Shown here: positions 4,475-61,672 of the stretch, piece after piece
Position numbering within the stretch: the stretch's first letter is position 1
Layout: each line of letters starts with the position of its first letter
Assembly: GCF_947503375.1 (NCBI RefSeq)
Contig: NZ_CANNDQ010000001.1
Location: 1 to 64,000, forward strand
Direction of reading: 5' to 3'
From: an uncultured Psychroserpens sp.
GTDB lineage: Bacteria; Bacteroidota; Bacteroidia; Flavobacteriales; Flavobacteriaceae
Length of the DNA: 64,000 bases
Program-made: the position numbers and the translations under genes
The notes under the pieces: model-generated
What the model was told of the DNA's origin: nothing
What the model saw: only the letters and a program-made list of their open reading frames with translations
The model's database searches: none

Positions 4475-4505
4475 AAAAAGCACTCTAGATTGAGTGCTTT
4501 TTTTA
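4475..4505 (+). terminator. Intrinsic terminator after dodecin gene
   Basis: aaaagcactctagattgagtgcttttttt: AAAGCACT...AGTGCTTT stem followed by T-tract. Confidence 0.75.
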
Positions 4506-56069: not shown

Positions 56070-56104
56070 TAAAAAAAGCGAGCATTGTTGATGCTCGCTT
56101 TTTT
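56070..56104. terminator. Bidirectional intrinsic terminator between convergent SPOR gene and infB
   Basis: aaaaaaagcgagcattgttgatgctcgctttttta: stem AAAGCGAGCAT..ATGCTCGCTTT. Confidence 0.8.
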
Positions 56105-56125: not shown

Positions 56126-58834
56126 TTATTTTAGTGTCTTTTTGACTTCCACTTCTTGGAATGCTTCAAGAACATCATCTATTTGAATATCGTTATAATT
56201 CTTCAACTGAATACCACAATCGTAACCTTTAGCTACTTCTTTAACATCGTCTTTAAAACGTTTCAATGATGCTAGTTCACCTGTGTGAATAACGACACCA
56301 TCACGTATCAAACGAATACCAGAGTTTCTAAATATTTTACCATTAGTTACCATACAACCTGCGATTGTACCAATTTTTGAAATCTTAAAGGTTTCTCTAA
56401 TTTCGGCAGTACCTGTAATTTCTTCTTTAAGCTCTGGAGATAACATTCCTTCCATTGCATCTTTAAGATCGTTGATTGCATCGTAGATAATAGAGTACGT
56501 TCTGATATCTATTTCTTCATTATCAGCAATTTGACGTGCATTACCCATTGGTCGTACATTAAATCCAATTATAATAGCATCTGAAGCTGTTGCCAATAGC
56601 ACATCACTTTCGGTAATGGCTCCAACACCTTTATGGATAATATTAACTTGAATCTCTTCAGTAGATAATTTCTGGAATGAATCTGTCAATGCCTCAACAG
56701 AGCCATCCACATCACCTTTAAGAATGATATTTAATTCTTGGAAATCACCCAATGCTATACGACGACCAATTTCATCGAGCGTGATATGACGCTGCGTTCT
56801 TACCGATTGTTCACGTTGTAATTGTGTACGTTTGGCAGCAATTTGTTTTGCTTCACGCTCATCTTCAAATACATTGAATTTATCACCTGCTTGAGGTGCT
56901 CCATCTAATCCTAAGATAGAAACTGGTGTTGATGGTCCAGCAGCTTTGACTTCATTTCCACGCTCATCATGCATTGCTTTAACTTTACCACTATTCTTCC
57001 CTGCCAACACGTAATCACCAACCTTTAAAGTTCCTGCTTGTACCAAAATTGTAGATACGTACCCACGTCCTTTATCTAAGAACGCTTCTACTACAGTTCC
57101 AACAGCATTTTTATTAGGGTTAGCTTTAAGTTCTAGTAACTCTGCTTCAAGTAAAACTTTTTCTAGCAACTCTTTAATACCTGTTCCGTTTTTAGCTGAA
57201 ATATCATGTGACTGGATTTTTCCGCCCCAATCTTCAACCAATAAATTCATGTTTGCCAATCCTTCTTTTACCTTATCAGGGTTTGCTCCAGGTTTATCTA
57301 TTTTATTTATAGCAAAAACAATTGGTACTTCGGCTGCTTGAGCATGAGCAATTGCTTCTTTTGTTTGTGGCATTATGGCATCATCAGCAGCTATAACAAT
57401 AATTGCTAAATCGGTAACTTGAGCTCCACGAGCACGCATTGCCGTAAAGGCTTCGTGACCTGGTGTATCTAAAAATGCTATTTTTTGACCATTGTCTAAT
57501 TGTACGCCATAAGCACCTATATGCTGAGTAATACCTCCTGACTCTCCTGCAATAACATTTTCTTTACGTATGTAATCTAACAACGACGTTTTACCGTGAT
57601 CTACGTGACCCATTACAGTTACAATTGGTGCACGCGTTTCTAAATCTTCTTCTTTATCTTGTACTTCTTCAAAAGACTCTTCAATATCAGCAGTTACAAA
57701 TTCTACTTCATAACCAAACTCATCAGCTACAACAGAAAGGGTCTCTGCATCAAGACGTTGGTTCATGGTAACCATCATACCTAAAGACATACATGCAGAA
57801 ATAATTTCAGTTACAGAAACATCCATCATTGTAGCTACTTCGCTCGCTGTAACAAATTCTGTTACTTTTAAAATCTTGCTTTCAGCTGCTTCAGCTTGTA
57901 GATCTTTTTCGGTTTGTTCTCTATGTTGATCTCTTTTCTCTCTTCTATATTTAGCACCTTTGCCTTTACTAGATTTGCCTTGTAGCTTTTCTAATGTTTC
58001 ACGTACTTGTTTTTGTACTTCTTCAGCACTAGGCTCTTCTTTAACAACAGCAGGTCGTTTCCCTTTTCCTTTGTAACCACCTCTTTGGTTGTTTTTATTT
58101 CCAAAATTATTATCTCCTCCCGAACCTGGTCCTTTACTAATACGACGTCTTTTTTTCTTATTAGCGTCATTTGACTTTTCTGCTGGTTTTTTGTCTTCTT
58201 TCTTTTTCTTTGGTTTATTGAATTTTGAAAGATCAATCTTTTCACCAGCTATGGTTGGTCCTGATAACTTTTTATACTGCGTTTTTAAAGTCTCATCTTC
58301 AGGTTCTTTATCCTGTTTATCTACTTTAGTTTCTGTCTTAACCGTTTTTGCCTTTGGTACTTTTGCTTTAGGCGCTTCTTTAACTTTTGGTTTTTCTACT
58401 ACTTCGGCTTCTTCTACTTTCTCTTCTACTTTGTCTTCAACAGGTTCTGGAACTGCTTCTTCCTCTTTTTTAGTTACCGCTTTAGGTTGATCTAGATCGA
58501 TCTTACCAACTTGTTTCGGACCGCTTAGATCTACTTTTGCCTTAACAACTTCATTACTCTTTTCCTCTTGCTTGGCTTTTTCTTCTAATTCACGCTCTCG
58601 CTGTTCGCGCAATTCTTCCTTTTCTTTGAGTTTAGCCTCACTAACTTCTTGCGACGCCATTTTTTTATTAGCATCGGTTTGAAATTCGTTTGAAAGAACT
58701 GTGTAAACGTCTTCTGATATTTTTGTATTAGGGCTCTTCTCAATAGAAATGCCTTTTGATTCTAAAAAATCAACAGCACGATCTATAGAGATATTGAGTT
58801 CTCGTAATACTTTATTTAATCTTGTTTGAGCCAT
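56126..58834 (-). CDS. infB: Translation initiation factor IF-2
   Basis: '[42 protein letters not shown]', '[32 protein letters not shown]'. Confidence 0.98.
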
Positions 58835-58864: not shown

Positions 58865-60097
58865 TTATTCTTCAAATTCTTCTTTAAGAATTCTTATCAC
58901 ATCTAGAATTGTTTCCTCTTCTAAATCTGTTCGTTTTACTAGGTCTTCAACATCTTGTTCTAGAACACTTTTTGCTGTATCTAAACCTGCTTTACTAAAT
59001 TCGTCTATAATCCAGCTTTCTATTTCATCAGAAAACTCTCTTAATTCTACATCTTCTTCTGCACCTTCTCTAAAGACATCTATCTCATAACCTGTTAATT
59101 GTCCTGCTAATCTAATATTATGACCTCCTCTACCAATGGCTTTTGATACTTCTTCAGGTTTTAATAGTACTTCTGCACGTTTGTTTTCCTCATCAATTTT
59201 AATAGAGGTTACTCTCGCTGGGCTGAGTGCTCTTGTTATAAATAAATTCAAGTTGTTAGTATAGTTAATAACATCTATATTTTCATTGCCTAATTCACGT
59301 ACAATACCATGAATTCTTGAACCTTTCATCCCAACACAAGCACCTACTGGGTCAATTCTATCATCATAAGAATCTACGGCTACTTTAGCTTTTTCACCAG
59401 GAATTCTAACCACTTTTTTAATAGTTATTAAACCGTCAAACACTTCTGGTATTTCTTGTTCAAATAATTTCTCAAGGAATACTGGCGCTGTTCTTGACAT
59501 GACGATTGCGGGCTTATTTCCCTTAAGCTCAACGCTTTCTATAATCCCTCTAACATTTTCGCCTTTTCTAAAAAAGTCTGAAGGAATTTGCTTATCTTTT
59601 GGTAAGATAATCTCATTACCTTCATCATCTAATAAAATGATTGCTCTATGACGAATATGATGTACTTCAGCAGAATAAATTTCACCTTCTAAATCTTTGA
59701 ATTGCTTATAAATGTTAGTGTTATCGTGTTCGTGAATCTTTGAAATTAAGTTTTGTCTTAATGCTAAAATAGAACGACGCCCTAAATCAACTAGTTTTAC
59801 CTCTTCAGCTACATCTTCTCCAACTTCAAAATCTGGTTCAATTTTTTGAGCTTCAGATAATGCAATTTCTTGGTTTGGTTCTTCAACCTCATCATCTGCA
59901 ACTACAATTCTATTTCTCCATATCTCTAAATCACCTTTATCTGGATTGATAATGATATCAAAGTTATCATCATCACCATATTTCTTCTTCAACGCATTTC
60001 TTAATACATCTTCTAAAATCGCCATTAACGTTACACGATCTATTAACTTATCGTCCTTAAATTCTGAAAAAGATTCAATTAACGCAATATTTTCCAT
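58865..60097 (-). CDS. nusA: Transcription termination/antitermination factor NusA
   Basis: 'DPVGACVGMKGSRIHGIVRELGNENIDVINY', 'VSKAIGRGGHNIRLAGQLTGYEIDV'. Confidence 0.97.
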   Translation of the reverse strand: MENIALIESFSEFKDDKLIDRVTLMAILEDVLRNALKKKYGDDDNFDIIINPDKGDLEIWRNRIVVADDEVEEPNQEIALSEAQKIEPDFEVGEDVAEEVKLVDLGRRSILALRQNLISKIHEHDNTNIYKQFKDLEGEIYSAEVHHIRHRAIILLDDEGNEIILPKDKQIPSDFFRKGENVRGIIESVELKGNKPAIVMSRTAPVFLEKLFEQEIPEVFDGLITIKKVVRIPGEKAKVAVDSYDDRIDPVGACVGMKGSRIHGIVRELGNENIDVINYTNNLNLFITRALSPARVTSIKIDEENKRAEVLLKPEEVSKAIGRGGHNIRLAGQLTGYEIDVFREGAEEDVELREFSDEIESWIIDEFSKAGLDTAKSVLEQDVEDLVKRTDLEEETILDVIRILKEEFEE

Positions 60098-60109
60098 TAC
60101 TGTTATGAA

Positions 60110-60574
60110 TTAAAATTTTATTACAACTTGAGCTTTAGAAATCGTATTATACGATACTTCGGCTTGCTTTTTTACGGTTACTTTACCTTTGCCTACTGGC
60201 TTAGGCTCTCTTACTTTCCATTCTAGATTGATCCTATCATCGTCAGCTTCTATAAGTGTACCTTCAATGGTTTGATCTTCTTTGGTTTTTATATTAAGCG
60301 TTCTGCCAATATGTTTTTTGTACTGCCTTTTATTTGTTAAAGGTTCTGTTGCACCAGCAGATAAAACTTCAAGAGAAAAATCTTGTTCTTCTCTATCTAG
60401 GTTATGTTCAATTGCTCGACTTATAAATATACAATCTTCTACTAAGACACCATTATCACCATCAATCACGATTTTAATTGTATTATCAGCCGAAACATCA
60501 AAATCAATCAAAAACAAATCTTCACGTTGTTTCAACCCCTCTTTTAATAATTTTTTTACAGTATCTCTGAACAT
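60110..60574 (-). CDS. rimP: Ribosome maturation factor RimP
   Basis: 'FLIDFDVSADNTIKIVIDGDNGVLVEDCIFISRAIEHNLDREEQDFSLEVLSAGATEPL'; upstream of nusA-infB. Confidence 0.92.
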   Translation of the reverse strand: MFRDTVKKLLKEGLKQREDLFLIDFDVSADNTIKIVIDGDNGVLVEDCIFISRAIEHNLDREEQDFSLEVLSAGATEPLTNKRQYKKHIGRTLNIKTKEDQTIEGTLIEADDDRINLEWKVREPKPVGKGKVTVKKQAEVSYNTISKAQVVIKF

Positions 60575-60583
60575 TTTTAGTAT

Positions 60584-60609
60584 AAAAAGAGCGGACTTTC
60601 CGTCCGCTC
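60584..60609 (-). promoter_or_regulatory. Leader hairpin plus T-tract upstream of rimP (candidate attenuator)
   Basis: - strand GAGCGGAC-GGAAA-GTCCGCTC-TTTTT; T-tract ends 9 nt before the rimP ATG. Confidence 0.6.
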
Positions 60610-60637
60610 ATTATTTTTATTTCTTCAAACAACGCTG

Positions 60638-60669
60638 CAAATATACAACAATTATATTGATTTTTACAA
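60638..60669 (-). promoter_or_regulatory. Candidate promoter for rimP-nusA-infB
   Basis: Reverse strand TTG-N21-TATATTTG. Confidence 0.5.
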
Positions 60670-60727
60670 CTGCTGCTATGTCGTTTTTTATTATTAAATT
60701 TATATAATACAAATCAACTCAATCAAT

Positions 60728-61552
60728 ATGAAAAAAATACTAGTCCCGACAGATTTTTCAAAAGAAGCTGAAAACGCATTAAAAGTAGCTGCTCAACTAG
60801 CAAAAAGACACAGTAGTGAGATTTATTTGTTGCACATGCTAGAAATCCCTATGCAAGAAACTGATGCTGTAAGCGCTCAAGCAGACGTACCTGAAGTCAT
60901 GTTCTTTATGAAAATGGCACATCAAAAATTTGAAGATATTATGAATAGTGATTTCCTCACTGATATTACGGTTCATGAAATAGTTAAACCCGATGCCTCA
61001 TTCAATGGCGTAGTTGATATTTGTCGCGAACACGGTGCAGATATTATTATCATGGGTTCACATGGTGCTAGCGGTTTTAAAGAGATGTTTGTGGGATCGA
61101 ACGCTGAAAAGGTTGTTAGAACCTCTGATGTTCCTGTTCTAGTTATTAAGAACGAGCATCCAGATTTTAGTGTAGATGATTTTGTATTTGCTTCAGATTT
61201 TAAGAACGACAATAAGGAAACATACAAACAAGCTACAGAGTTAGCTACAGCTCTTGGCGCTAAAATTCATTTACTAATGGTGAATACAGCTGGCAATTTC
61301 ACCACAACTACTAAAGCGAACAAACGCATTAACTCTTTTATAGAAGATTATAGCTTTAAAAATTACACTGTAAATATTTATAATGATGAAAGTGTAGAAA
61401 AAGGAATTTTGAATTTTTCAAATGATATCGATGCAGATCTTATTGGCATTAGCACGCATGGCAGACAAGGCATTGCGCATTTCTTTAATGGAAGTATTAG
61501 TGAAGATTTAGTTAACCATGCTAAACGTCCAGTAATTACATTTAAAATATAG
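60728..61552 (+). CDS. Universal stress protein, tandem UspA domains
   Basis: 'ILVPTDFSKEAENALKVAAQLAKRHSSEIYLLHMLE...GADIIIMGSHGASGFKEMFVGSNAEKVVRTSDVPVLVI' plus second half 'DADLIGISTHGRQGIAHFFNGSISEDLVNHAKRPVITF'. Confidence 0.93.
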   Translation: MKKILVPTDFSKEAENALKVAAQLAKRHSSEIYLLHMLEIPMQETDAVSAQADVPEVMFFMKMAHQKFEDIMNSDFLTDITVHEIVKPDASFNGVVDICREHGADIIIMGSHGASGFKEMFVGSNAEKVVRTSDVPVLVIKNEHPDFSVDDFVFASDFKNDNKETYKQATELATALGAKIHLLMVNTAGNFTTTTKANKRINSFIEDYSFKNYTVNIYNDESVEKGILNFSNDIDADLIGISTHGRQGIAHFFNGSISEDLVNHAKRPVITFKI

Positions 61553-61570
61553 TGAAACATTCAAAAAAAG

Positions 61571-61598
61571 AAAAGTCTTCCGTTCGGAAGACTTTTTT
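61571..61598. terminator. Bidirectional intrinsic terminator between uspA and tRNA-Gln
   Basis: aaaagtcttcc-gttc-ggaagacttttttg. Confidence 0.8.
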
Positions 61599-61599
61599 G

Positions 61600-61672
61600 T
61601 TGGCCTACTAGGGCTCGAACCTAGACTCTTCTGGACCAAAACCAGACGTGTTGCCAGTTACACCATAGGCCA
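61600..61672 (-). tRNA. tRNA-Gln (anticodon TTG)
   Basis: Reverse strand TGGCCTATGGTGTAACTGGCAACACGTCTGGTTTTGGTCCAGAAGAGTCTAGGTTCGAGCCCTAGTAGGCCA(A): 7-bp acceptor, anticodon stem TCTGG/CCAGA around TTTTGGT, T-arm GGTTCGAGCC. CCA not encoded. Confidence 0.95.

Follow-up and report, generated by a model that had tools for sequence, protein, structure and literature searches.

What an intrinsic-terminator-like hairpin does at the entrance of an operon that encodes the termination factor NusA is the question raised by the rimP-nusA-infB locus of an uncultured Psychroserpens sp., where such a hairpin lies between the promoter and the first start codon. The analyzed DNA, here called the window, is a stretch of 64,000 nt from one contig. 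The gene identities proposed in an earlier note on this DNA agreed with the models NF002531, TIGR01953 and TIGR00487 (Table 1), and the three genes follow each other with intergenic gaps of 12 and 30 nt. The -7 box of the promoter, TATATTTG, was present in all 54 leaders from the genus and the family, and a TAnnTTTG box in 116/119 family leaders; the TTG at -33 is conserved less than the -7 box. TAnnTTTG is also the -7 consensus mapped in Flavobacterium psychrophilum, as described in PMC9723704. The transcription start site of the rimP leader would lie after this box. The gene on the other side of the promoter is related to universal stress proteins and is transcribed divergently. Therefore, the hairpin is not the 3' end of an upstream gene.

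Direct reading of the sequence showed that the positions and spacings of promoter, hairpin and T-tract in the earlier note were all exact, and that it was also right in seeing no further TAnnTTTG between hairpin and rimP. The box TATATTTG is separated by 28 nt from the hairpin, which is followed by TTTTT and, after another 9 nt, by the rimP ATG (60574-60572); the end of the hairpin thus lies 14 nt before the ATG, U-tract included. The stem consists of 8 bp, six of which are G-C pairs, with a G-C closing pair and a 5-nt loop. Folding of the hairpin region resulted in z = -4.66, with none of 200 shuffles equally stable, and folding of the leader from the likely start site in z = -3.60. No antiterminator was observed in the leader fold, in which the stem had no pairing partner.

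A local terminator-pattern scan identified 9 terminator-like sites versus 7.3 expected, which is not significant; the terminator statistics cover the window and fetched loci. The significance of the hairpin is derived from its conservation. When the own genome was searched with a covariance model of the leader (E<=0.01), the rimP leader site was the sole match. It scored 54.4 bits, compared to a weak 26.6 bits for the ordinary terminator downstream of infB. A multi-gene regulon was considered and rejected, since the secondary model matches that were fetched look like common terminators located close to where upstream ORFs end. Elsewhere in the window, at 4475-4502, AAAAGCACTC..GAGTGCTTTT forms a strong hairpin that has a T-tail on each strand; it lies 97 nt before a plus-strand ORF and is probably a bidirectional terminator.

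Table 1. Features of the rimP-nusA-infB locus, in order of transcription (positions in the window).
Feature	Position	Strand	Evidence or details
Sigma-A type Bacteroidota promoter TTG-N21-TATATTTG	60638..60669	-	TTG 60669-60667, TATATTTG 60645-60638
Leader hairpin (candidate attenuator stem) GAGCGGAC-GGAAA-GTCCGCTC	60589..60609	-	Sequence, fold, conservation, covariation
Hairpin, 5' arm GAGCGGAC	60609-60602	-	
Hairpin, loop GGAAA	60601-60597	-	
Hairpin, 3' arm GTCCGCTC	60596-60589	-	
U-tract of five T, then interrupted (UUUUUAUA)	60584..60588	-	
rimP, ribosome assembly cofactor, first operon gene	60110..60574	-	NF002531, 207 bits
nusA, transcription termination/antitermination factor, proposed regulator	58865..60097	-	TIGR01953, 366 bits
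infB, translation initiation factor IF-2	56126..58834	-	TIGR00487, 826 bits
Ordinary terminator at operon 3' end, run of seven T	56073..56103	-	Comparison site

Leaders of relatives were sampled by the position of rimP and not by the presence of a hairpin, in sets that partly overlap in species. A terminator-like hairpin was found in 213/220 rimP leaders across the phylum, compared to 0-3.2% of dinucleotide shuffles. It was present in every leader of the genus (25/25), of the other family genera (29/29) and of named Flavobacteriaceae (80/80), and in 26/28, 29/31 and 24/27 leaders of the order sample, the class sample and the rest of the phylum, respectively. Of the seven leaders scored as lacking it, three or more (L065, L067, L109) show the hairpin by eye, with a start codon that is unclear or a T-tract that is weak. 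The stem reads exactly GAGGGGAC..GTCCCCTC in 88/119 family leaders, and its consensus is GGGGAC..GTCCCC in Bacteroidia and GCGGAC..GTCCGC in Psychroserpens, where the swap at pair 4 (GAGCGGAC..GTCCGCTC) is shared with one neighbor (L028). The loop sequence varies across relatives.

In a class-level alignment of 61 sequences, both-side (compensatory) changes were observed in 5/8 stem pairs and the covariation score was above all shuffles and all slid controls; these comparisons are the evidence for pairing, while the 100% pairing in the alignment is none, as the sequences were partly picked for it. Among 142 family genomes with rimP, about 30 of which belonged to the training set, the covariance model matched the rimP leader in 116, and in 115 this was the top match of the genome. 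Most of the remaining family genomes contain diverged forms at the same place, some with a mid-stem mismatch. The earlier note had made its proposal dependent on conservation in related genomes, and the hairpin is indeed kept across Bacteroidia with compensatory changes.

In small-genome relatives (L164, L165, L166, L167, L159 and L156) the stem letters of the rimP leader are recognizable and a mid-stem mismatch is seen, e.g., AGAGGCGAC..GTCCCTCT, as if the letters were kept and the central pair lost. Leaders from other classes of the phylum showed a rimP-leader terminator whose polarity is inverted, TCGCCC..GGGCGA-TTTTTG (L125, L127, L132, L133, L134, L142), and the stems AAGTGGGG..CCCCACTT (L118, L124, L131) and GTGAGCG..CACTCGC (L138, L140). 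One genome of the genus contains a second, 61%-identical rimP with a different leader on a short contig (L027, G019:C200), probably due to contamination of the metagenome bin.

The U-tract of the leader is short. Counted from the final G or C of the stem, the T-run is exactly five long and then interrupted by a different base in 29/30 leaders, whereas 3'-end terminators of same-family loci (n = 45) mostly have six or seven T. The mean T-run was 4.97 in leaders and 5.93 in 3'-end terminators (Mann-Whitney p = 2e-7, for related species that are not independent of each other). Distal interruptions of the U-tract are a feature of NusA- and NusG-dependent terminators in B. subtilis (PMC8060035), and the leader shares this property with NusA-dependent intrinsic terminators. 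However, its stem, with G-C pairs at 6/8 positions, lacks the weak hairpin or weak terminal pairs of that class, and weak hairpins are typical of factor-dependent terminators in B. subtilis.

In 13 Bacteroidia genomes nusA could be identified and its upstream region read, and RimP was undetected in profile searches (PF02576, NF002531), by which distant homologs encoded elsewhere could be missed, some of the genomes being incomplete; the sole NF002531 match in one of them (G028) was below threshold and lay within a different frame. A terminator hairpin was located directly before nusA in 10/13 of these genomes, which represent about eight lineages, with no room for rimP in between. Its distance to the nusA ATG was 23-107 nt, below 100 nt in nine loci and 107 nt in one, and this distance is independent of RimP homologs that may have been missed. 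By comparison, only 1/102 rimP-bearing loci has such a hairpin within 100 nt before nusA. Most of the ten leaders also contain a TAnnTTTG-like box upstream, and their stems include AAGAGGGGCGAGCCCCTCTT-T6 (L278), AGGGGGACATTGTCCCCTT (L279) and GAGGGGGCTAATGTCCCCTT (L276). The three genomes in which no hairpin was found before nusA are L280 and two that measure 0.3 and 0.5 Mb. This is the pattern expected if the element is part of the nusA operon irrespective of the other genes there. Therefore, autoregulation by NusA is favored over regulation by RimP.

Attenuation or NusA autoregulation, which the earlier note had considered plausible, is supported by these results, since the hairpin is conserved and directly precedes nusA where RimP was not found. 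We estimate the probability at roughly two in three that the hairpin is a promoter-proximal intrinsic terminator serving as feedback attenuator of rimP-nusA-infB, by which NusA would limit its own synthesis. This is favored by the conservation, base pairing, promoter geometry, short U-tract and association with nusA seen in the sequences. RNA polymerase starting from the TATATTTG promoter would have transcribed about 20 nt on meeting the hairpin and would reach the end of the interrupted U-tract near +50. While NusA is scarce, most polymerases would pass the terminator. Once NusA is ample, its presence at the RNA exit channel would help the hairpin to form and lengthen the pause on the interrupted U-tract, and more leader RNAs of ∼50 nt and less NusA would be made. 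An antiterminator RNA would be unnecessary, and the leader of ∼57 nt would be too short for one. Termination itself, its stimulation by NusA and the start site are predicted here from sequence features.

The near-invariant stem letters in Bacteroidia are left unexplained by the NusA attenuator model, and other members of the phylum use different stems. With the stem being exactly the same in so many family leaders, recognition beyond pairing is suggested, which would fit a real terminator that is constitutive or responds to something other than NusA (NusG, Rho, IF-2, an unknown protein that reads the stem, or a ribosomal signal), and that tunes the operon without NusA feedback. The interrupted U-tract would also fit sensing by NusG, as NusG-dependent terminators share it (PMC8060035). 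However, the retention of the hairpin before nusA after loss of rimP ties it to nusA or infB, although NusA and IF-2, which is encoded after nusA, are not separated by this observation. Overall, a terminator that is constitutive or sensed by another factor is considered unlikely.

Across 116 family leaders, the TAnnTTTG box and the hairpin are 27 ± 1.6 nt apart, and the hairpin usually ends 14-15 nt before the rimP ATG. In three genera (L158, L163, L168; the hairpin of L168 was taken by eye, as the scan had chosen another one) the distance to the ATG is ∼105 nt, whereas that to the promoter is unchanged. Since one distance is fixed and the other variable, the element is tied to the promoter and the beginning of the transcript rather than to the start codon. 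In these three genera the stretch from the U-tract to the rimP ATG is ∼90 nt longer than usual. A hairpin acting mainly on translation or mRNA stability, by hindering ribosome entry or protecting the 5' end, would fit the short distance to the ATG in Psychroserpens and the effect of structures near the start codon on translation in Flavobacterium johnsoniae (PMC6847099). However, the U-tract, which neither role needs, travels with the hairpin, the spacing to the promoter and not to the ATG is kept, and the distance to the nusA ATG in genomes without rimP varies widely. This role is therefore improbable, and the overlap with the ribosome-entry region mentioned in the earlier note is less favored as the mode of action.

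That RimP itself is the regulator and binds the leader hairpin, which might imitate the RimP site on rRNA, is very improbable. In most genomes rimP heads the operon, and a 2010 paper considered RimP feedback possible (PMC2965389), but the persistence of the hairpin before nusA where RimP is undetectable disfavors RimP as an essential sensor. Mimicry of 16S rRNA was rejected: in a test of the rRNA strand pair, the 16S locus of the own genome contained neither GAGGGGAC nor GAGCGGAC nor a GTCCCC/GTCCGC partner. Ribosome-mediated attenuation via a short upstream ORF, which ATGAGCGGACGG... just before the stem would open in Psychroserpens in a frame overlapping the rimP start, was rejected as highly improbable, as the ATG is not conserved and is missing in many genera (e.g., L030, L031, L036, L040).

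The proposed attenuator resembles known systems. For the rimP-leader of Firmicutes and Gammaproteobacteria, NusA was put forward as the most likely regulator and RimP as a second possibility (Naville and Gautheret, 2010; PMC2965389). Like the general form given there, the Bacteroidia leader has a terminator hairpin with a G-rich 5' arm, a C-rich 3' arm and a U-stretch immediately ahead of rimP; an antiterminator is not visible, NusA is the proposed regulator, and the hairpin lies within the 4-130 nt before the gene that define the rimP-leader (14 nt in the window; 213/220 leaders). It differs in the stem letters GAGGGGAC..GTCCCCTC and in having a single hairpin at a fixed promoter distance. 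Set beside the conserved stem motif GGGc(...)gCCC of the general form, its arms are likewise G-rich and C-rich, and its consensus is GGGGAC..GTCCCC in Bacteroidia and GCGGAC..GTCCGC in Psychroserpens. The main text of that paper makes no mention of Bacteroidetes. Rfam family RF01770, the gammaproteobacterial rimP-leader, has two hairpins, whereas the Bacteroidia form has one. RF01770 gave no listed match at E<=5 in window positions 60000-61600, where Rfam returned sub-threshold, unrelated matches only, and none above its gathering cut-off (47 bits) in 60 class genomes or the own genome, whereas the E. coli control leader was detected with 102 bits.

In B. subtilis, NusA controls its own synthesis by stimulating intrinsic termination in the 5' leader of nusA (Mondal et al., 2016, as cited in PMC12288461). 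The mechanism proposed here is the same, demonstrated there and inferred for Bacteroidota, and the leader is ∼57 nt long in Psychroserpens compared to ∼180 nt in B. subtilis (according to PMC2965389). In E. coli, terminators t1 and t2 precede rimP, and operon transcripts increase when termination by NusA is reduced (PMC6511841). The metY-rimP-nusA-infB operon is the same, with a hairpin GGGC..GCCC-U7 shortly before rimP, but its leader is long and contains a tRNA gene, several promoters and two tandem hairpins (PMC6511841). A structured 5' element without Rfam hits was reported upstream of rimP in F. psychrophilum and is conserved in other genera of the Flavobacteriaceae (PMC9723704). It is very probably the same element as the Psychroserpens hairpin; the main text of that study gives neither a mechanism nor a link to NusA. 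In the open-licence literature, no paper was found that measured termination at a Bacteroidota rimP or nusA leader or the response of such a leader to NusA, no Term-seq study of the rimP leader in Bacteroides and no study of NusA feedback in Bacteroidota.

Judged by its sequence, the element is probably a class-wide Bacteroidota form of the known rimP-leader/NusA feedback attenuator that Rfam misses. Relative to the open-licence literature, the class-wide description and the rimP-loss comparison appear to be new. The 2010 paper posed RimP or NusA as regulator (PMC2965389), and loss of rimP with the hairpin kept speaks to that question. The leader is also short enough for a direct test in reporter fusions and in vitro. 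More tentatively, and with less than even confidence, Bacteroidia may share a minimal nusA attenuator, in which one hairpin at a fixed promoter distance would sense NusA at the promoter exit and the stem letters would be held by a recognition step, through NusA, polymerase or another factor, that is not described in other phyla.
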